From Methanosaeta sp. PtaU1.Bin060 (GTDB taxonomy: Archaea > Halobacteriota > Methanosarcinia > Methanotrichales > Methanotrichaceae): a stretch of 54,017 nt of DNA. The stretch lies in the NCBI GenBank assembly GCA_002067365.1, contig MVRK01000046.1, positions 1-54,017 on the forward strand, given 5' to 3'. Below are positions 10,090 to 48,894 of the stretch, piece by piece (the first letter of the stretch is position 1; every line of letters begins with the position of its first letter). The translations under genes were made by a program, and so were the position numbers. A model generated the notes under the pieces. It had not been told where the DNA came from. It searched no databases and worked only from the letters and a program-made list of their open reading frames with translations.

Positions 10090-10659
10090 ATGAAGGTATT
10101 ATGCCAATTAGCAGCTCTTTGCCTGATATGCTCCATAGCAGCCATATCCTTGGCATCCGGTGAGACCCTCGATCTTGGTCCTGCTCAGATTTCAGTGGAC
10201 CTGACGGGCCTTGGCTCTTACTCTGTAGAGAAGGGCTCATCCTCTTCCCTGGACCACCAGGAGAAAGAAGCCGAATTCGAATATAGCCTCTATCCGGCCA
10301 AAGTAACCGCCGAAGGCACCTCTAGCCAGGTGAATATAGAGGTACATGAGATGAGCACATCCATGCCCCTCGATACATCCATATCGAGAAAGGATACATC
10401 CATCGGCCTTGAGCATTGCATAGAGCAATCTGGAATTGTGGCTGGCAGAATGGACCTGCAGACAGAGCCGTATCAGATTGACGGCCATGATGGGGTGCTG
10501 GCCCAGATCGATAAGTCTGGTAAGGACCCTATGTACATCATAGCCTACAGCCCCGACCAGAAAGATGGCTCTGGGATGGTGGTATGCATTGTAGGTTCGG
10601 ATTTCCCATGGGAAACCACGAAGGCGATATTCGATTCCCTTGAGGTGAAAATCGCTTAA
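10090..10659 (+). CDS. Secreted protein of unknown function
   Basis: The 189-aa product starts MKVLCQLAALCLICSIAAI, a clear signal peptide ending near ASG. A mature domain of mixed beta character follows (LDLGPAQISVDLTGLGSYSVE, then VNIEVHEMSTSM, YIIAYSPDQ and MVVCIVGSDFPWETTKAIFDSLEV). The last part resembles the end of small exported domains in which a residual is tested against a fitted standard deviation or load; I do not recognise a family. The ATG at 10090 has AGGTG about 6 nt upstream; a longer frame from 10054 lacks one. It is followed 11 nt later by a small membrane protein and may be cotranscribed with it. Confidence 0.7.
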   Translation: MKVLCQLAALCLICSIAAISLASGETLDLGPAQISVDLTGLGSYSVEKGSSSSLDHQEKEAEFEYSLYPAKVTAEGTSSQVNIEVHEMSTSMPLDTSISRKDTSIGLEHCIEQSGIVAGRMDLQTEPYQIDGHDGVLAQIDKSGKDPMYIIAYSPDQKDGSGMVVCIVGSDFPWETTKAIFDSLEVKIA

Positions 10660-10670
10660 GAATCAAGGCC

Positions 10671-10973
10671 ATGAATTCGAATAGATATCTGCTCAAACTT
10701 GGCCGGATCAGCGCCTGGATTCTCCTGGTCCTGATGGTCCTCTTCATAATCTCGGGCTACGCCTGGGAGGAGAGGATAATCATGCCTCTGCAGCAGGCCA
10801 GGTGGATTCATACGCAGCTGGATACGTGCCTGGTATTTTTCTTCCTGGTGCATGCATTGATCAGTGCGAAGTTCACCCTGCGACGATGGAAGGTGGGCAA
10901 TGAGGGGCTGATCAATGCGTCCCTGCTGCTCATCGGGGCCATCAGCTTCCTCTTGACCCTCTCAATAAAATGA
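10671..10973 (+). CDS. Small membrane protein with three hydrophobic segments
   Basis: The 100-aa product has hydrophobic stretches at about residues 13-30 (ISAWILLVLMVLFIISGYAW), 50-68 and 80-97. Histidines in RWIHTQLD and LVHALISAKF lie at the ends of the second segment, an arrangement seen in small cytochrome b-like or DUF4405-like membrane proteins; heme binding is only a possibility. It lies 11 nt after the secreted-protein gene on the same strand. No strong ribosome-binding site is seen. Confidence 0.65.
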   Translation: MNSNRYLLKLGRISAWILLVLMVLFIISGYAWEERIIMPLQQARWIHTQLDTCLVFFFLVHALISAKFTLRRWKVGNEGLINASLLLIGAISFLLTLSIK

Positions 10974-13389: not shown

Positions 13390-14043
13390 TTGGCTATCAA
13401 GTATGGTTTTAACGTCCTTGATGACTACCAGTCCGATGCGAAAGCCGTCAGCGGCGATGAGATCATCCAGGCCCAAAAGATCTGGAAAGAGGCAAAAAAC
13501 ACCATTTGCGCAGTCTTTGTGGCCGATGTATCCGGCAGCATGGACGGCGAACCACTGAATAAATTGAGACGCTCATTGATAGATGGTCAATACCATATCG
13601 GTGAGGACAATCTGGTTGGACTGGTATCACATTCCAACGATGTCAACATCGATCTGCCGATCGCCAAATTCGATGCGAAGCAGAGGGCCAAGTTTGCCGG
13701 AGCTGTTCGTGATCTGAAGGCAGGCGGCAGCACTGCAACCTTCGATGCGATCGCCGTTGCCATGCAGATGCTCGCAGATCATAAGGCAGTAGGCGACGAT
13801 GCAGACCCCAATCTGAGACCTATGATCTTCGTTCTCAGCGACGGCAATAGCAATAGAGGCCATTCGCTGGACGAGATTGAGGGCATCGTGAGGGAACTTG
13901 GGATGCCCATAGACACAATCGGCTACAATGCGAATATTCCTGAGCTGCAAAAGATCTCCCGCATCAATGAGGCCGTATGCATCAATGCCGATACCGAGAA
14001 TGTTACCTATAAACTGGGCCAACTCTTTAATGCAGAGATGTGA
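13390..14043 (+). CDS. von Willebrand factor A domain protein, probably 5'-damaged
   Basis: The product has a vWA domain with a complete MIDAS signature (VFVADVSGSMDG near residue 43, a threonine in GGSTATFDAI and D in VLSDGNSN). It fits the YegL/TerY-like group found beside TelA genes. The only in-frame start is a TTG at 13390 without a ribosome-binding site, yet the frame reads protein-like sequence upstream to 13336 (SSPDKFVEFSQREKYRALAI) before a TAG at 13333. That TAG is preceded by an in-frame GTG at 13324. The 5' end therefore looks truncated or mutated. The stop (ATGTGA) is 17 nt before the TelA start. The protein is cytoplasmic and has no TM segment. Confidence 0.75.
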   Translation: MAIKYGFNVLDDYQSDAKAVSGDEIIQAQKIWKEAKNTICAVFVADVSGSMDGEPLNKLRRSLIDGQYHIGEDNLVGLVSHSNDVNIDLPIAKFDAKQRAKFAGAVRDLKAGGSTATFDAIAVAMQMLADHKAVGDDADPNLRPMIFVLSDGNSNRGHSLDEIEGIVRELGMPIDTIGYNANIPELQKISRINEAVCINADTENVTYKLGQLFNAEM

Positions 14044-14060
14044 ATATTGGATGGTTTAAG

Positions 14061-15201
14061 ATGGCTTTCACGATGGAAGTGCCCAATGAAGCGGCGATCA
14101 AGAACGAGGTCCAGGAGCAGGTCAAACCTGCGCCAAATGATGTAGCCCGGCTTCAGGCTGTAGCAGAGAGCAATGTTGCTGAAATTCTGACCCTAGATAT
14201 CGATGAACTCGCCAAAAAGAAGTATATCCTCCAGTCGATCGAGTCATTTGGGGCAGCCTCGATGAAGAGATCTGCCTCTAAAAATTCGATGCTCCAGGTG
14301 ACAGTCGGGAAGCTCTCCAAAGACGGGGACGAAGGCGGCGTTGTGGCAAAGGGTTTAATGGATTTGAACAGGGAGTTAAAAGAACTGGACCCAAGCCTGA
14401 TCGATTTCACGAGGACCGGCATCTTCGGCAAGCTGTTTGATCCGATCAGGGCCTATTTTGCCAAATACCAGAACGCAGATTCTTCAATCGCGGAGATCAT
14501 CGCATCTCTTGACAAAGGGAAAACAATCCTGAAAAACGATAATATTACACTGGAGATCGAGCAGCAGGCATTGCGCGATTTGACTAAAAAGCTGATGAAA
14601 GAGATTCAGCTTGGCACCCTGATGGACGCATCGATTGAGATGCAGATCGATGCTGCCAAAGCCAGGGATGAGGCCCCGGAAAAAGTCAGATTTGTCACAG
14701 AAGAAGTCCTCTTTCCTCTGCGCCAGAGGATCATGGATATGCAGCAGATGGTCGTCGTCAATCCGCAGGGAGTGATGGCTACAGAGATTGTGATAAGAAA
14801 CAACAAGGAACTGATGCGCGGTGTGGAAAGGGCCAAAAATGTGACAGTCTCCGCTCTGAAAACCTCTGTCAATGTTGCCAGCGCTCTGTATCACCAGAAG
14901 ATAGTCCTGAAGAAGATCGAGATGCTCAATGAGACGACGAACAACCTCATCAGCATCACCTACTCAGATGCTGAGGGAGGAAGGGGCTGAGATCCAGAAA
15001 CAATCCATGGATGCCAATATCTCCGTCGAGACGCTGAGAACCGCCTTTGCCGATGCAATGGAGGCGCTGGATTCGATCAACACATATAAGCAGGAAGCCC
15101 TTCCCAAAATGCGGGATACCATAGATCAGTTCAAGGAACTGGCCGCCAGAGGTGAAGAACAGATTCAGCAGCTTGAGAAGGGCCATAAGCTGTCGCTGTA
15201 G
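14061..15201 (+). pseudogene. TelA/KlaB family (toxic anion resistance) gene split by a frameshift
   Basis: Residues from the ATG at 14061 match TelA-family proteins (LQAVAESNVAEILTLDID, FGKLFDPIRAYFAKYQNADS, VNPQGVMATEIVIRNNKEL). This frame stops at 14990 just after ETTNNLISIT. The remaining C-terminal part (QMLREEGAEIQKQSMDANIS, then ALDSINTYKQEALPKMRDTI) continues in another frame to 15201. The shift lies between about 14950 and 14972. Together the pieces make a normal-length TelA of about 380 aa. TelA is linked to tellurite and other stress resistance, but its biochemistry is unclear. Whether this is a sequencing error, a pseudogene or a programmed shift cannot be decided here. Confidence 0.85.
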
Positions 15202-15210
15202 CCTTCTGCT

Positions 15211-16233
15211 TCAGGACGCAGGATGTATCCCCTCGACCTCGAACTCCTTCATGACTGCTTCGCGTATCTCGCAGCCTATCGCCTCGGCCACATTCCTTCC
15301 AGGAACCACCATATCGAGCCTCAATCTCAGATCCGACTGTTTAGCGTCGACGAGGAGCACATATATCTTCCTATCCTTGAGCACCATCGGGTGACTCATC
15401 GCCCTCTCAAGGATAACCTCCCTCGCTCGATCGATATCCGAGGCCTTTTGCAGGTCGAAGTTCACAGTCCAGGTGATCTCAGGCTCCCTAATCGACCAGT
15501 TGATGATGGGCTCAGTGCTCATGATTCCATTTGGCACAATGATTCTGCGGTTGTCCCATGTGCGTATCACAGTGTGCCTCAATGTGAGGTCCTCGATCTG
15601 GCCGTAATCCCCTTTGAAGTCCACCGAATCGCCCACGCGGAATGGCTGGAAGATGGCGATGAAGATGCCTGATGTGAAGTTGGCAAGAGAGTCCTTGGCG
15701 GCGAAGCCTATGGCGAGACCGGCGATGCCGGCGCCCGCCAGCATGGCAGTGGCGAGGCTATGAAGCTGAGGTATCTGGAGGATGACCAGCATCAGTCCGA
15801 CGATGTAGATCGAGGCGGAGACGAGCCTTCGGATCATGAGCTGCATCGTCTCATCCAACTTCACCTCGACCTTTCCGGCAACACGGGGGATGTAGCTCAT
15901 CAGCATGCGGTCAACGATCCTGACAGCAGCACTGGTGAGGATCAATATGACGAGTATTACTATTAAATTTATTATAATAAAAGCAATATCTATGCCATCA
16001 ATGGCATTTGCCAGGAACTGCAGGGATGTCAGGTTGATGTGTCTGCCTGCCACAAGATCCACGCAGGACTGAATGTCATCGGCCAGGTTCTGAGGATTGG
16101 CCAGGTTAGGGATGACTGTGAGGCGATCCACAGTGAGGACGGATGGAGATTGAGTATTTAAGGGTATCCGGCGTGCTCTGGGGGATATAGGAGGATTCAG
16201 GATTCGAGAATCTTTCTTATCCTTCTCCTGCAC
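15211..16233 (-). CDS. MscS family mechanosensitive channel
   Basis: The product has a soluble N-terminus, hydrophobic segments at about 80-105 and 135-157, then the pore-lining helix typical of MscS (LAGAGIAGLAIGFAAKDSLA) and the beta domain (FQPFRVGDSVDFKGDYGQIE, followed by NRRIIVPNGIMSTEPIINWS). MscS channels open under membrane tension and release solutes. The longest frame starts at a GTG (16233) that overlaps the preceding gene by 37 nt and has a crowded GGAGGA. A GTG at 16131, 20 nt downstream of a TTAAATA box, is an alternative start that would give 306 residues. It is last in the tubulin-like operon. Confidence 0.88.
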   Translation of the reverse strand: MQEKDKKDSRILNPPISPRARRIPLNTQSPSVLTVDRLTVIPNLANPQNLADDIQSCVDLVAGRHINLTSLQFLANAIDGIDIAFIIINLIVILVILILTSAAVRIVDRMLMSYIPRVAGKVEVKLDETMQLMIRRLVSASIYIVGLMLVILQIPQLHSLATAMLAGAGIAGLAIGFAAKDSLANFTSGIFIAIFQPFRVGDSVDFKGDYGQIEDLTLRHTVIRTWDNRRIIVPNGIMSTEPIINWSIREPEITWTVNFDLQKASDIDRAREVILERAMSHPMVLKDRKIYVLLVDAKQSDLRLRLDMVVPGRNVAEAIGCEIREAVMKEFEVEGIHPAS

Positions 16234-17942
16234 TCCTCCGACTTCAGAATCTCCCTCAGCTCAGATTTCACCATCTCCCTCAGGTCGTACTTGTCGCCTG
16301 CCAGCATCTCAGGCCTGACCAAGCAGCTGTCTGCAGCGACGGGCGCGATAGAAGCGTTCCCGAAGATCTTGAGGGGCTTCCTGAAGATCGGGCGCTCTCC
16401 GTTTTCGAGCCGATCGAGGCAGTTGTATAGCTCATCGCTGAGGCCCCCCTTCCCGTAGAAGTAGTCTCTCAGCTTCTCCTTGGTGATCTCCTTGTAGCTC
16501 TGGAACCCAAGGATGTTCGTCTGGTTCTCGTCGATGTATTTCAGGGAGAGGGTGATGATCTCGTGAAGCCTCCACTCCAGTGTGCCCTTGCGCTTGTGCT
16601 CTCCAGGAGCGCCACCGTAGGGGTTCCGAAGGAGGATGAGGATGTCCTCATTCTTGCTCTCTCCCAGTTTCCTGTAGATCTTTATCTTGCTCTCCGGCAG
16701 GTGCGTTCTGATCGCAACGGCTTCGGAGATCTCCTCTGCGCCGAAGAAGCCGCGGGTGAAGACCAGAGCCCTGTCTGCCTTGGTCGGATCGCACGGGAAG
16801 AGGCTTCCGGCCTTGTCAAGGGCTCCCTCCACCAGGCTATTGATGTCCCCGGCAGTCTCTGACTGCGCATGGTAGCAGGGGACGAGCATCGGCGGAAGAA
16901 GCCGCATTTCGCGACCCCTATCCATCCTATCCTGGCCGTTCTCCGCGTCCACTTCCCAGATGACTCTCCTTATGGCAGGAGCATCGTCCTGGAGCTGGTC
17001 TCCCGGATAGTTTCTCAGGTCCAGGAGCGGCTTCAGTGCTCCGAAGATGGCGCTGTCCATGGCCGAGTAGTTGCCCTCGAATCTCTCCTTCAGGACCTGG
17101 TTATCCATCAGCATCAGGCAGTCGATGCCCTGGCCCGACTCCTTCGTGAGGAGATCGTACATGGCGATGACTGCTCCAAGATACCTCTGTCCCTCGACTG
17201 TATGCCTCTTATCCGCCCCCATCTCAGTCATGATCCCCAGAGCGAAGATGGGAAAGATGGCCTCTTCCGATCGAACGAAGCTGGTGATGGGATTGATAAA
17301 GCCGGTTCCTGTGCCACCACCAAGGGATGCGAGGAAGAGGATGCTGTCGCAGAGCCTGGAGGATCTCATGCCCCTGCCGTTTTCCCGCCTGATGATCCCC
17401 GTCAGGTTTTCAGGGATCGAGGGCAAACGTCCGGGACGCACTTCCATTCTCCTTTGGGCCCTGCCCTCTCTTTCGGCTGATTTGCCCATCGAGATTATGG
17501 TGAACGGCCTGATGCCGATCTTCCACATATATCCCGAGAGGGGATTCTCATAGGCTGTGAACTCCTCGGAGCATTTGGCCTTGAGCTGAGGGTCCAGCTC
17601 AAATATCTCGAAGAGGGCTTTGAGGTACTCTGCCCTCCTGTCGAAGCCCGGAGCCTTGAGGTCGAAGCCGTAGGTGCCCATCACATAGCCGCGGGTGGCA
17701 GAGCTCTCGCTTACTCCTCCGTGGCAGATGAGGTACGGTGGATAGCACCCATGAATGAGATTGCCGTAGTAATCCTGTCCCTGTGCGTCCTGAGTGGCCG
17801 ACTCCAGCCACACGCCCTTGACGTCACCGAAGGCCAGAAGCTCTCCGAACTGATGTACTATGAGGTTCGCATCCTGGCTTCTCAGGAACTGCCTGAGGAT
17901 GTTGCCACCGGCACCGCCTATTCCCACCACGCAGGGCTTCAT
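16197..17942 (-). CDS. Tubulin/FtsZ-superfamily GTPase, non-canonical
   Basis: The 581-aa protein begins with a GTP-binding loop (CVVGIGGAGGNI, residues 4-15) and carries the tubulin signature GGGTGTG at 208-214 within ILFLASLGGGTGTGFINPIT. CLMLMDN (275-281) and NYSAMDSAI (291-299) fit the later nucleotide-contacting strand and the T7 region. It is longer than FtsZ (about 350-400 aa) and unlike it elsewhere, so it belongs to a tubulin-like family (Tubulin_2, PF13809 or related) rather than the division FtsZ or CetZ. GGGAGAGG precedes the ATG at 17942. It lies between a multi-TM protein and MscS, with two secreted proteins upstream, suggesting membrane-associated filaments. Its function is not known. 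Confidence 0.85.
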   Translation of the reverse strand: MKPCVVGIGGAGGNILRQFLRSQDANLIVHQFGELLAFGDVKGVWLESATQDAQGQDYYGNLIHGCYPPYLICHGGVSESSATRGYVMGTYGFDLKAPGFDRRAEYLKALFEIFELDPQLKAKCSEEFTAYENPLSGYMWKIGIRPFTIISMGKSAEREGRAQRRMEVRPGRLPSIPENLTGIIRRENGRGMRSSRLCDSILFLASLGGGTGTGFINPITSFVRSEEAIFPIFALGIMTEMGADKRHTVEGQRYLGAVIAMYDLLTKESGQGIDCLMLMDNQVLKERFEGNYSAMDSAIFGALKPLLDLRNYPGDQLQDDAPAIRRVIWEVDAENGQDRMDRGREMRLLPPMLVPCYHAQSETAGDINSLVEGALDKAGSLFPCDPTKADRALVFTRGFFGAEEISEAVAIRTHLPESKIKIYRKLGESKNEDILILLRNPYGGAPGEHKRKGTLEWRLHEIITLSLKYIDENQTNILGFQSYKEITKEKLRDYFYGKGGLSDELYNCLDRLENGERPIFRKPLKIFGNASIAPVAADSCLVRPEMLAGDKYDLREMVKSELREILKSEECRRRIRKILES

Positions 17943-18021
17943 TTTATCCTCTCCCGCAAGGCGATTCGTATAGGCAGGACATCCGCAGATGTCAGCGAAT
18001 GGATCGAAAAGGGATTCGCAC

Positions 18022-18615
18022 TCATGTCCTCATCTCCTCTATGTAGCCCTTTATAATAGGCAGCAGCAGGAGAACCAGTGATATCAGAAGGCTTCCGTAT
18101 CCTACGTACCAGTAGAATGGATTTGTCTGTGGATAGATGGTCCCAAGGTAAACAGAACAAGCTATCGATGCCAGCAGAAATAAGGGCGCAAGAAGCGTCA
18201 ACTGCTTGAGCTGCACAGATATCTGATAATAGCTGTAGCATTGTGGCACGAAAAGCACTACGAGTATTCCGGGGATTATCACAGCCCCGCCGAAATAGAA
18301 GAGCCCGAAGCTGTCCGAGGCCACCTGAGGGACCTTGAAATAGTTCCATGTCCCCAGGACGTCAGGGGTCAGGAAGTAGAGGAAGGCGAAGGCTACCAGG
18401 AACAGCAGCCACGAGAAGAGCATCATCGTGTTGAAGTTCGATCCCTGGGGCATGCGCAGAGCTGCCATAAGATCTTTCCTCTTGAATGCGCTGTTCGATG
18501 TCTTCCTGATACGGCCTGTGACTCGCTCGAAATAATGCATGTGAATGATCAGGCCCAAGATCAGCAGCCCCACCATGATGGCGAGCAGGGGCATCCCGGG
18601 CACATCCTGGCTCAT
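18022..18615 (-). CDS. Polytopic membrane protein of unknown family
   Basis: The 197-aa product has about five hydrophobic segments: near residues 9-27 (LLAIMVGLLILGLIIHMHYF), 63-83 (MLFSWLLFLVAFAFLYFL), 100-125, 135-157 and 168-190. The loop after the first segment is basic (ERVTGRIRKTSNSAFKRKDL). It has no recognisable family. The start overlaps the end of the upstream anchored protein by 4 nt, and the tubulin-like gene follows after 79 nt. It may be the membrane partner of the surface proteins and the cytoplasmic GTPase; this is inference from gene order. Confidence 0.75.
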   Translation of the reverse strand: MSQDVPGMPLLAIMVGLLILGLIIHMHYFERVTGRIRKTSNSAFKRKDLMAALRMPQGSNFNTMMLFSWLLFLVAFAFLYFLTPDVLGTWNYFKVPQVASDSFGLFYFGGAVIIPGILVVLFVPQCYSYYQISVQLKQLTLLAPLFLLASIACSVYLGTIYPQTNPFYWYVGYGSLLISLVLLLLPIIKGYIEEMRT

Positions 18616-19997
18616 CTGTAGAACCTCCTCTCGACGAGGATGCTGGCCAGGAATGCTAATAGAAGCAGGGCGAGGATATTCCCGAGGCCGAGGCCCGAGA
18701 TCAATTCGTATCTCACGAGCTTGGCGTTGAGCGGCTTGCTCCCCTCCCCGAGAGACTGAGAGCCTTGGTTCTGGTCGTACTCCGAGTACTCGAATATGTA
18801 GCTGTAGGTCTGATTTGCGTCCTCGACGCCGAAGGGCTTGACATCGAAGGATACTGTGGATTCGTTGTTGGTCAACGTCACGACTTTTGACCCTGTCGAC
18901 TTGTGGGGATTGGCAGGCGTGGATGTGAATAGAGATACAGTCACGGGGACCGAAGGCTCCGTCGGATCCTGATTCTTCATATTCAAGCTGAAGTTATAGC
19001 TCTCCCACCAGTACTGGTTTGCATCCTCGGGGGTAACCGTCGGCTTGTCCACCCAGATTGTCACGCTCTTTCTCAGCCTCGGACCATCCTCGATTGATGT
19101 GTTGTTGACTGCAATCCCATCGCTGAATGTGTAGTAGTAGGTGAAGTTCTTGCCCGAGTCAGCCTTGTCAAAGAAGCCGTACTGGTTTGCCGCGAAGCTC
19201 ACCCCTTTGCCGGGCATGGTTATCTGGGTCTCATTCCTCAGCTCACTCTTCTTGTCGTCTAGAAGATGAAGGGTGACATTGACCAGGTCTCCGTCAGGAT
19301 CTGTCACATTGACGAAGTAGTTTATGGGATCATTGAACCTCGGGCGCTCGGGTGCCTGAAGAGTCATATTCGTGAGCTCTGGCTGCCTGTTGATTATATC
19401 CAGCGTGAGGGCTTCAGATTGCCATTCATTCTTTCCGTCGCTGACGTGCAGCCTCAAAGCCACGGGCCCCACCCTCTTCAGGTCGCTGAAGGATGTGAGC
19501 TCTGGAAATGTGGTGGAAGAGAGGTTCTTGCCGTTAACCACCTCATACTCGCCGTTCATGATCATTTGAGGAACTGAGTTCACCTTGCGAAATGCCTTCT
19601 CCCCAGGCTCCATGACCTCAAGATCTATGTACAGGACCCTTCGTATCTCAATTGGGTTCGGGTTTCCAACTGTAGCTATTATCCTGAAATTGTCATTCCT
19701 TGTCAGGGTCTTGTTATCCGGCTCTATCGCCAGGCCCATGGTGAAATTCTTCGTATCGTAATTCTTTGTGACGAAGGGCTCTATGTAGAGAAGCTTCTTC
19801 AGCTCTTCGAGCTTCGGGTTGCTCTGGCTCTTCGCATCCTTCACAGCCTTGAGAAGGTTGTCTATGCTCGTTTGCCTCGAGCCGCCACCTCCACCGCCAC
19901 CCGAACTCGCTCCGCCTCCGCCCAGGACTCCGCCGCACTGGGCCGCCATGGGAAGGATCAGCAGAAGAATCAATAGAAGGGCTAGAATCCTCTTCAT
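18612..19997 (-). CDS. Membrane-anchored extracellular beta-domain protein
   Basis: The 461-aa protein has a signal peptide (MKRILALLLILLLILPMAAQ) followed by a cysteine and a glycine/serine-rich linker (residues 22-42). A large extracellular region of Ig/cadherin-like beta repeats follows (RPRFNDPINYFVNVTDPDGD and similar), with many N-x-S/T sites. It ends with one C-terminal membrane segment and basic tail (LALLLLAFLASILVERRFYR). The cysteine after the signal resembles a lipoprotein site. It is probably exposed at the surface or within the sheath. The start overlaps the upstream gene and the end overlaps the downstream gene by 4 nt each. Confidence 0.75.
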   Translation of the reverse strand: MKRILALLLILLLILPMAAQCGGVLGGGGASSGGGGGGGSRQTSIDNLLKAVKDAKSQSNPKLEELKKLLYIEPFVTKNYDTKNFTMGLAIEPDNKTLTRNDNFRIIATVGNPNPIEIRRVLYIDLEVMEPGEKAFRKVNSVPQMIMNGEYEVVNGKNLSSTTFPELTSFSDLKRVGPVALRLHVSDGKNEWQSEALTLDIINRQPELTNMTLQAPERPRFNDPINYFVNVTDPDGDLVNVTLHLLDDKKSELRNETQITMPGKGVSFAANQYGFFDKADSGKNFTYYYTFSDGIAVNNTSIEDGPRLRKSVTIWVDKPTVTPEDANQYWWESYNFSLNMKNQDPTEPSVPVTVSLFTSTPANPHKSTGSKVVTLTNNESTVSFDVKPFGVEDANQTYSYIFEYSEYDQNQGSQSLGEGSKPLNAKLVRYELISGLGLGNILALLLLAFLASILVERRFYR

Positions 19998-21676
19998 GTC
20001 TCCTCCCTCAAGGCCTCGAACTCATAGGCGTAATACCTCGGATATGCCTTCCATGTCAGATTTGTCCAGTTTTGAGACGCAGACTCATAGATTCTCCTAT
20101 CCTGATGAAGCTGCCAATTGTTGTTGTCTTTGGTATAAGCAAGAGCTATTGTTATATTTTGAAGCGATGATCGCACCTCTACCTGGTAGGTTATCTTCGT
20201 GCCTATCTCAGTGGCGCTCTCGTTTCTCAGGTTGACATCGATGTTGGGGCCTGGAAACTCACCCAGCACTATGTCATTGGATATGAATCTGTACTTCGTC
20301 TCTCCCAGGAAGGGCCCACTGAAGAGGTTCGCCGTGTTGACTGTGTAGCTCAGATTTGCCATCCCATGCTCATAGGTTTGCAGGCCCCCATAGAGCCATC
20401 TCTTGGCCACTGGATCATACACCTCAAGCCTTATCGCCACAGGTCCATTTACCTGTGACCCATTTATCTGCACAGTGTATGTGTAGGTGTAAAGGCTTGA
20501 AATTGAGCCGCTCAGTGGATTGGTGAAATATAAAGATGCATTGAAGGGCTGGACGGTCGCGTTTTCGATCTCTATGGGTACGATCTCGGGACCTGGATAG
20601 CTATCCGACTCATCCTTCGTGGTGCTGATGGGCTTGTCGGAGCCCGGGTAATAGATGCTGAAGTAGTAGTTAGATGATCCTCTTGTGTCGGGGTTCTCTG
20701 TCAGGCGAATATTTGGCCAGGCAAGGCGCTGCCAGCTGGAGATGTTCTCGTAGGGCACGATGCCCGCAGACCTGTACGTCCTGCTGTCCAGATCCCATAC
20801 GCTCAGCTCCACATTGAGCTTCTTCTCAGCCCTGAAATCCAGAGCGTAGGCAAAGCGGCTCTCGGGCAGGCCCCTCTCAGGGCTCACGCTGGCATTCCTG
20901 TAGGTGTAGTTCGCTGGCCAGGAGGGTCCTCCATAGACATCCGACTCCTTCCTGCCTGCGAATTTGTAGTATGCCGTGTTGAAGTCGAAGCCCAGAGAGA
21001 TATTGTCCCAGACGAGCTTCTGCCAGGAGCCGACTTTGGTGTAGTTCATGCTTCCCTTTTTCGTCCAGGGGCCGCTCTTTGAAGGCGCTACCTCTATCAA
21101 TATGCTGTCATTGGAGTTGGACTGTGCCTCTACCTCGTAGGAGTAAGCTGTCTCATTGGTCCCCTTCAGAGGAGTGACGCCTTCATTCCTGAAAGCCTCG
21201 AAGGGCTTGAGTATCCTGGGATGGCCCTCGTAGTCCTCCACCACGATGGGTGATCCTATGAACTGGGTTATCCTCAGGCGGTACCATGCCTTGTCCCAGA
21301 TGCCAGTCTCATTTTTGTCCGATACCCATCTGCCGAAATCCCCCTGCTTCATCTCCGGGGACTGGAGGTTGAGATCAAAGCGGAAGTCCTTCGCTTCTCC
21401 TGGCTTCAGATAGAGGCTCTGATCCTCGACTGTGAAATCCTTGGATATTGACGCGTCTTCAACATCTGGACCGACCTCCAGTTCTATCTTCTTTATAGCC
21501 ATGGCATTGGTCGGCTGGATATGAATGACATACGAGATGGTCCTGCTCGCCTCCAGGGGTTCAGCCGCCGCTCCTCTCTGCTCGAAGAAGACAGAGGCGA
21601 CATCCTGAGACTGCGCTGTGAAGACGCTCAACATAAGTGCTATCGAGAGGCAAAAAACCACCTTTGGTAAGGCCAT
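19994..21676 (-). CDS. Secreted repeat protein, first gene of the tubulin-like operon
   Basis: The product of about 560 aa begins MALPKVVFCLSIALMLSVFT, a signal peptide cleaved near AQSQD. The mature protein holds about four repeats of a beta domain, recognisable by SWQKLVWDNISLGF, SWQRLAWPNIRLTE, a less clear copy at LSYTVNTANLFSGPF, and NWTNLTWKAYPRYYAYEFEA. Each is followed by YY- or YRF-type and PGP-type motifs. There is no C-terminal membrane segment. It has many potential N-glycosylation sites. A start at 21691 (MDVSGM...) is possible; neither start has a strong ribosome-binding site. It overlaps the next gene by 4 nt, so the two are probably a translated pair. Confidence 0.72.
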   Translation of the reverse strand: MALPKVVFCLSIALMLSVFTAQSQDVASVFFEQRGAAAEPLEASRTISYVIHIQPTNAMAIKKIELEVGPDVEDASISKDFTVEDQSLYLKPGEAKDFRFDLNLQSPEMKQGDFGRWVSDKNETGIWDKAWYRLRITQFIGSPIVVEDYEGHPRILKPFEAFRNEGVTPLKGTNETAYSYEVEAQSNSNDSILIEVAPSKSGPWTKKGSMNYTKVGSWQKLVWDNISLGFDFNTAYYKFAGRKESDVYGGPSWPANYTYRNASVSPERGLPESRFAYALDFRAEKKLNVELSVWDLDSRTYRSAGIVPYENISSWQRLAWPNIRLTENPDTRGSSNYYFSIYYPGSDKPISTTKDESDSYPGPEIVPIEIENATVQPFNASLYFTNPLSGSISSLYTYTYTVQINGSQVNGPVAIRLEVYDPVAKRWLYGGLQTYEHGMANLSYTVNTANLFSGPFLGETKYRFISNDIVLGEFPGPNIDVNLRNESATEIGTKITYQVEVRSSLQNITIALAYTKDNNNWQLHQDRRIYESASQNWTNLTWKAYPRYYAYEFEALREET

Positions 21677-21749
21677 TCCACTCACATCCACTATTCGTCC
21701 TCAATCGGTGAACATATTTAATTCTAACGTTTATGGACGAAATGATTAT

Positions 21750-21768
21750 TTAAATATAAAATATAAAA
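21750..21768 (-). promoter_or_regulatory. Probable promoter of the tubulin-like operon
   Basis: The minus strand reads TTTATATTTAAATAAT here, the only strong TATA-like element between the operon and the convergent end of the aminotransferase gene. It would start transcription near 21725, about 50 nt before the ATG at 21676. Confidence 0.45.
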
Positions 21769-21791
21769 TTAGTTTGTTTTAGTAGCTCAAA

Positions 21792-30346: not shown

Positions 30347-30404
30347 ATTATATAATAACATTTAATATATAAACACCGATAAAACAATGCTTAAAAGAAG
30401 CCGA

Positions 30405-30479
30405 TGGGACAGCGCGGATTCGAACCGCGGTCCAAGAGTCCCAAACCCTCGAGGATAGACCAGGCTACCCCACTGTCCC
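30405..30479 (-). tRNA. tRNA-Pro (TGG anticodon)
   Basis: A full cloverleaf folds on the minus strand: acceptor GGGACAG/CTGTCCC, D arm with GGGT/TCCT-type pairing, anticodon stem GAGGG/CTCTT around loop TTTGGGA (anticodon TGG at 30441-30443), and T arm CGCGG-TTCGAAT-CCGCG. The discriminator base is A at 30405; no CCA is encoded. No intron is seen. Confidence 0.95.
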
Positions 30480-30509
30480 AAAAGAACGCTCTCTACAGGA
30501 CCAAGGTCC

Positions 30510-48803: not shown

Positions 48804-48894
48804 CGGGCTTGAAGGGATTTGAACCCTCGACCACCTGGTATCTTCATACAAAAGTTTAAAAGCCAGACGCTCTGCCTAACTGAGCTACAAGCCC
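48804..48894 (-). tRNA. tRNA-Lys (TTT anticodon) with a 17-nt intron
   Basis: On the minus strand the cloverleaf folds with acceptor GGGCTTG/CAAGCCC, D arm GCTC/GAGC, anticodon stem TCTGG/CCAGG and T arm GAGGG-TTCAAAT-CCCTT. The mature form is 74 nt including the discriminator G. The anticodon TTT is at 48858-48860. A 17-nt intron (48840-48856) interrupts the anticodon loop at the canonical 37/38 position. The predicted splice motif has a central CTTT/GAAG helix flanked by 3-nt bulges TAA and ATA; the inner helix is weak. EndA encoded at 36929-37981 should remove it. Confidence 0.95.

Follow-up and report, generated by a model that had tools for sequence, protein, structure and literature searches.

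What does a protein with tubulin-like glycine motifs do in a run of genes that otherwise encodes secreted and membrane proteins, and which of these neighbours belong with it? The question is raised by the genome of Methanosaeta sp. PtaU1.Bin060 (labelled G000), in which contig MVRK01000046.1 (C46) was analysed as one window, that is, the whole stretch of 54,017 nt. Between 21691 and 15211, ORF calling revealed five minus-strand reading frames of 565, 461, 197, 581 and 340 aa, which we label, in transcription order, S565, S461, TM4, TUB and MscS. A preliminary description had read them as a five-gene operon that joins a tubulin-superfamily GTPase to envelope proteins and a tension-sensing channel.

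Gene layout, conservation and possible exchange of the unit

The features of the locus are as follows.

21744 to 21770, minus strand: AT-rich, TATA-like stretch 5' of S565, a possible promoter of the unit (reading of the sequence)
19994 to 21691, minus strand: S565, secreted, with an N-terminal signal segment and no C-terminal transmembrane (TM) segment (ORF, hydropathy, sequons, position in relatives)
18612 to 19997, minus strand: S461, with a signal segment, a Gly-rich linker, a predicted all-beta ectodomain of several Ig-like units and a C-terminal TM segment (AF2, Pfam, Foldseek, alignment)
18022 to 18615, minus strand: TM4, 197 aa, five TM segments (hydropathy, alignment)
16197 to 17942, minus strand: TUB, predicted tubulin-superfamily protein of 581 aa (PF00091, AF2, Foldseek)
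17904 to 17924, minus strand: T1 loop of TUB, GIGGAGG; G7, I8, G9, G10 and G12 invariant among 33 sequences
17301 to 17321, minus strand: T4 signature of TUB, GGGTGTG, invariant among 33 sequences
16965 to 16997, minus strand: putative T7 equivalent of TUB, QLQDDAPAIRR (profile alignments to CetZ and FtsZ; column inspection, 33 sequences)
16203 to 16355, minus strand: C-terminus of TUB, with a disordered linker (530-548) followed by a helical tail (549-580) (AF2 pLDDT, DSSP; tail pattern in the alignment)
15211 to 16233, minus strand: MscS-type channel, not counted in the unit (PF00924, E 6.8e-20; adjoins the unit in the window genome only)

The genes had been described as joined throughout by 4-nt overlaps or short gaps. 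Such overlaps were observed in the window between S565 and S461 and between S461 and TM4 only, whereas TM4 and TUB are separated by 79 nt, where most relatives have a 4-nt overlap, and the called MscS frame reaches 37 nt into TUB, so that its true start probably lies further in. In the neighbourhood survey, which covered 36 other loci from related genomes (TM4 was hidden by ORF overlap in four of them and recovered by tblastn), the order S461-TM4-TUB was kept in each of the 35 on a long enough contig, the genes for the most part overlapping by 4 nt. S565 lies 5' of these three genes by sequence match in most loci, and in a few others whose contig reaches, an ORF of 1043-1377 aa occupies its position. 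The operon proposed earlier is thus kept together as a unit of four genes. Its last gene had been correctly named as MscS, and, in the window, its overlap with the 3' end of TUB might favour a five-gene unit in which MscS senses tension; however, no MscS adjoins the unit at any of the 36 other loci, and this reading is scarcely credible.

The vWA, TelA and EngB genes near the unit were likewise rejected as parts of it, as they are adjacent in the window only. The vWA gene and then TelA lie at 13390-15201 on the plus strand, opposite to the unit, and the pair is specific to this locus; the C-terminal part of TelA (PF05816, 263-331) lies in another frame from about 14929, a frameshift that reflects either misassembly or a genuine break. 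Elsewhere in the window, ARAGORN places a tRNA-Pro at 30403-30480 and Rfam a tRNA at 48804-48894, and the tools disagree on both.

All four genes of the unit are under purifying selection, strongest in TUB (dN 0.22 vs dS 1.24 against its nearest relative) and weakest in S565. The pairwise identities of TUB, S461 and TM4 correlate with r of 0.85-0.90, which gives weak support to the unit, as common descent alone produces the same. Two diverged versions of the unit (TUB about 34-42% identical) share the RnhB-AGXT site in different species of the window's genus. In locus L039, which carries the window's version, part of the TUB of the other version (10411-10965, 65% identical to that of L065) lies directly behind the unit; this suggests replacement in place, whereby complete units are exchanged at a single position in the chromosome. 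These observations, together with the length of S565 in relatives (537 to about 1460 aa) and its position as the least conserved gene, would suit a variable surface locus for adhesion or recognition that is swapped between species and in which TUB is an accessory. Among the four genes, however, TUB is the most strongly conserved (69% vs 43% in S565), unlike an accessory part, and we regard such a locus as improbable.

Predicted products and affiliation of TUB

S565 had been taken for a secreted repeat protein. Its hydrophobic N-terminal segment agrees with secretion, but BLASTP self-comparison gave no off-diagonal match at E<=1, so the internal repeats were dropped. It holds 16 N-glycosylation sequons, and the family median is 1.86 per 100 aa vs 0.32 in TUB. 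S461 agrees, by prediction, with the anchored beta-domain protein that had been described: hydropathy places a TM helix at residues 437-455, followed by a short basic cytosolic tail (ERRFYR), and the AF2 model (pLDDT 83.5) is all-beta and Ig-like. Weak matches to PF17963/PF00801 occurred in 4 of 30 members, and Foldseek returned generic multi-Ig proteins alone (TM-score about 0.2) and no specific fold relative. TM4, also rightly recognised as a multi-TM protein, matches no Pfam family; the motif QGSNFN is conserved in its positively charged TM1-TM2 loop. The sequon density of S565 and S461 is about four to seven times that of TUB and TM4, and this split into sequon-rich and sequon-poor proteins fits a topology with S565 and S461 outside and TUB and TM4 inside.

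For TUB, the two glycine motifs were confirmed at residues 7-14 (GIGGAGGN) and 208-214 (GGGTGTG). PF00091 matched all 33 TUB members (best E 2.1e-10), the window TUB itself with E 1.7e-6 and 28.9 bits, below the gathering score of 33. Structure prediction had been set as a test, and the AF2 model (mean pLDDT 80.9, pTM 0.82, alignment of 33 sequences) displays the tubulin GTPase fold; its top Foldseek match in the PDB is CetZ2 (4b45; E 5.3e-13, TM-score 0.71 by target length), with tubulins next (E about 1e-12). By predicted fold TUB belongs to the tubulin/FtsZ superfamily, and with the gene order kept in the 35 loci, the earlier idea of a non-canonical member accompanied by TM and surface proteins holds. 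The residues of T1, T4 and T6, including the T6 'DN', are invariant across the 33 aligned members, and from its sequence TUB would be expected to bind GTP and might also polymerise.

The T7 region shows a different pattern. T7 of CetZ (TDLGDFKTVM) and of FtsZ (NLDFADVRTVM) both align on QDDAPAIRRV of the window TUB, other members having segments like PPSLAMREKF, an assignment made by alignment within a diverged region. At this place the second catalytic acid is replaced by A, G or S in 33 of 33 members, and only some members retain the first. Such loss of the T7 acids would suit a non-polymerising GTP switch or assembly factor that only regulates the export or assembly of S565 and S461, and the low-confidence inserts at 155-194 and 313-344 in the window TUB model could block filament contacts. 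The C-terminus of FtsZ, a linker and a helix, anchors the polymer, and the conserved linker-plus-helix tail of TUB resembles this design, which speaks against a mere switch. Moreover, the superfamily members studied so far make filaments, according to the authors of PMC2875224. We consider a switch unlikely, though it deserves some weight.

Profile comparison points to CetZ as the nearest relative of TUB. The hhalign match to CetZ (E 3.9e-13) covers 186 columns and runs through the T6 'DNQ', FtsZ follows with E 2e-4, and hmmsearch with the TUB profile reached the CetZ of family f7, which we take to be Methanosarcinaceae, at 40-44 bits. The FtsZ model TIGR00065 was not reached by the window TUB (24.3 bits vs a cut-off of 295), and a separate true FtsZ is encoded in the same genome. 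A 428-aa tubulin-like protein from another family of the class (L104), which carries a DNQ motif and scores 27.6 bits with the TUB profile, is possibly another unnamed paralog.

The preliminary description had also linked the locus to a published vWA-partnered family, FtsZl1, which was proposed computationally in 2010, together with partners of the vWA, GTPase and OmpA kinds (PMC2875224). As a diverged FtsZl1 (PF13809) member, TUB would remodel membrane or bud vesicles, and the common superfamily, several membrane-protein neighbours and a weak similarity to PF13809 in 27 of 33 members (best E 4e-4) agree with that. The window TUB, however, scores 13.2 bits against a PF13809 cut-off of 27, and the profile alignment of the TUB family to the FtsZl1 proteins of the class (E 5.8e-7) is confined mostly to the surroundings of T4 and falls short of that to CetZ. 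None of the 36 relatives has, beside the unit, a gene homologous to the vWA gene of the window, and no P-loop GTPase gene is conserved beside TUB among these loci. Furthermore, the T6-H7 part, reported as not identifiable in FtsZl1 (PMC2875224), is present, and TUB has 510-580 aa across relatives vs about 1050 aa. Judged by sequence, FtsZl1 membership appears largely refuted, and the corresponding function is quite unlikely.

Distribution and the division context

With a single-sequence search, TUB was detected in 45 of the 50 genomes of the order (32 of the 33 good ones) and in no other family of the class; within Methanotrichaceae the unit is near-universal. When 392 genomes across the phylum were searched with a profile, full-length relatives turned up in Methanotrichaceae and in G213 only, the Methanocellaceae MAG UBA148 (L139, identical over 4728 bases). 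As the unit is intact there, it can reside outside Methanotrichaceae. S461 has the same distribution as TUB in the phylum-wide profile search, and a pattern-based scan of 84,980 species returned the same TUB carriers only. Carriers presumably include the cultured M. thermoacetophila PT and M. harundinacea. In the Methanocellaceae MAG (L243, 457-4272), a 1271-aa protein adjoins the unit and has a relative near the Methanothrix unit L069. A viral or mobile origin was discarded, as neither a phage record nor a related viral contig was found, and so was a defence system, for which PADLOC gave no match.

In the complete genome G016 (3,008,626 bases and one small contig), which we take to be M. soehngenii GP6, RnhB and AGXT are present, the unit is missing behind them and S461 is missing altogether; at this unoccupied site (C1 2146500-2162500, L242) unrelated genes follow AGXT. 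If the assignment is correct, the unit is not essential for a filamentous Methanothrix. Published work places sheath proteins in all Methanotrichales (PMC11576556), yet this Methanothrix genome cleanly lacks the unit, which weakens the sheath formation that had been suggested as its role and led us to reject sheath biogenesis as a necessary one.

The same comparative study reports no known plug or division partner in Methanotrichales (PMC11576556). The first FtsZ is constant in every genome (434-449 bits), while the second, with more than 405 bits in every f7 genome listed, ranges in Methanotrichaceae from 398 bits down to none. It was not found in G000, G018, G037, G026 and G001, is broken in G047, and in G046, G011 and G009 has lost the T4 motif GGGTGTG and kept T7 (see also L235-L241); incomplete genomes are among those named here. 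Some genomes carry both the unit and a second FtsZ, and the unit is missing from one good genome only. On account of a second FtsZ that lost T4 with T7 kept, or that is missing, division might have been rebuilt around the unit. TUB would then be a one-faced tubulin with an intact GTP face (T1-T6) and a non-triggering T7 face, a stable membrane-bound seed or cap whose GTP face would pair with the T7 face of a partner in the same cells, be it FtsZ, CetZ or the second, degenerate FtsZ. We regard this as a long shot.

A candidate scaffold and its comparison with known systems

The reading that we favour, at a probability of about 0.45 and so somewhat below even odds, is a membrane-spanning complex in which a CetZ-like GTP-binding scaffold organises surface Ig proteins, perhaps at junctions or septa. 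S565 and the Ig-like stalk of S461 would lie outside, the latter anchored by its single C-terminal helix, and TM4 would form a five-helix membrane core. TUB would be held GTP-bound at the inner face, where its docking on cytosolic loops of TM4 or on the short tail of S461 is guesswork. TUB probably assembles into GTP-dependent scaffolds, and since conservation does not extend to the T7 acids, the trigger of hydrolysis, these may turn over slowly or not hydrolyse at all. Such scaffolds could gather S461 and S565 at envelope sites, most plausibly cell-cell junctions or division sites of the filaments. We infer the physical complex, its docking sites, its place in the cell and its role from the evidence given above; since the host family Methanotrichaceae grows as filaments (PMC11576556), a junction or septum role suggests itself, with moderate confidence at best, and the cell shape or septum remodelling proposed earlier is a possible role.

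Archaeal cytoskeletal proteins are mostly known without membrane or surface partners, and TUB comes with a small and constant set of them. With its presumed presence in cultured organisms, a connection between an inner scaffold and the surface can be tested directly. The unit is also a first candidate organiser of division or cell junctions in sheathed Methanothrix filaments, for which comparative genomics had offered none (PMC11576556).

No prior description of the unit was found in the open-access literature. Non-canonical archaeal members are included in the CetZ survey (PMC9856176) and in the superfamily survey (PMC9871819), and neither describes the TUB unit. TUB shares with CetZ (PMC9856176) the tubulin fold, the best PDB (4b45) and profile match, the T6 'DNQ' and the archaeal phylum, but CetZ has about 370 aa, its T7 is not conserved in TUB, and family-specific inserts and the C-terminal linker and helix are found in TUB alone of the two. 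TUB furthermore has fixed membrane and surface partners, whereas Methanosarcinales CetZ has none according to the survey (PMC9856176), and genomes bearing TUB encode a normal CetZ too. FtsZl1 is comparable in its divergence within the superfamily, its membrane and surface partners and its proposed envelope role (PMC2875224); TUB, however, is about half as long, its model holds no long coiled coil, its T6-H7 is identifiable, and it has no conserved vWA, GTPase or kinase partners. Halo.Tub and other CetZ-like archaeal paralogs are similar in their phylum, unique C-termini and unknown neighbours, but Halo.Tub occurs in quasi-tandem copies, a distinction drawn from the published description only (PMC9871819). 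Finally, the predicted archaeal secretion system around arCOG01314 likewise has operon-encoded membrane proteins whose Ig-like domains are extracellular; that system has an AAA+ ATPase and vWA proteins, and the present unit has a tubulin relative instead (PMC5898192).
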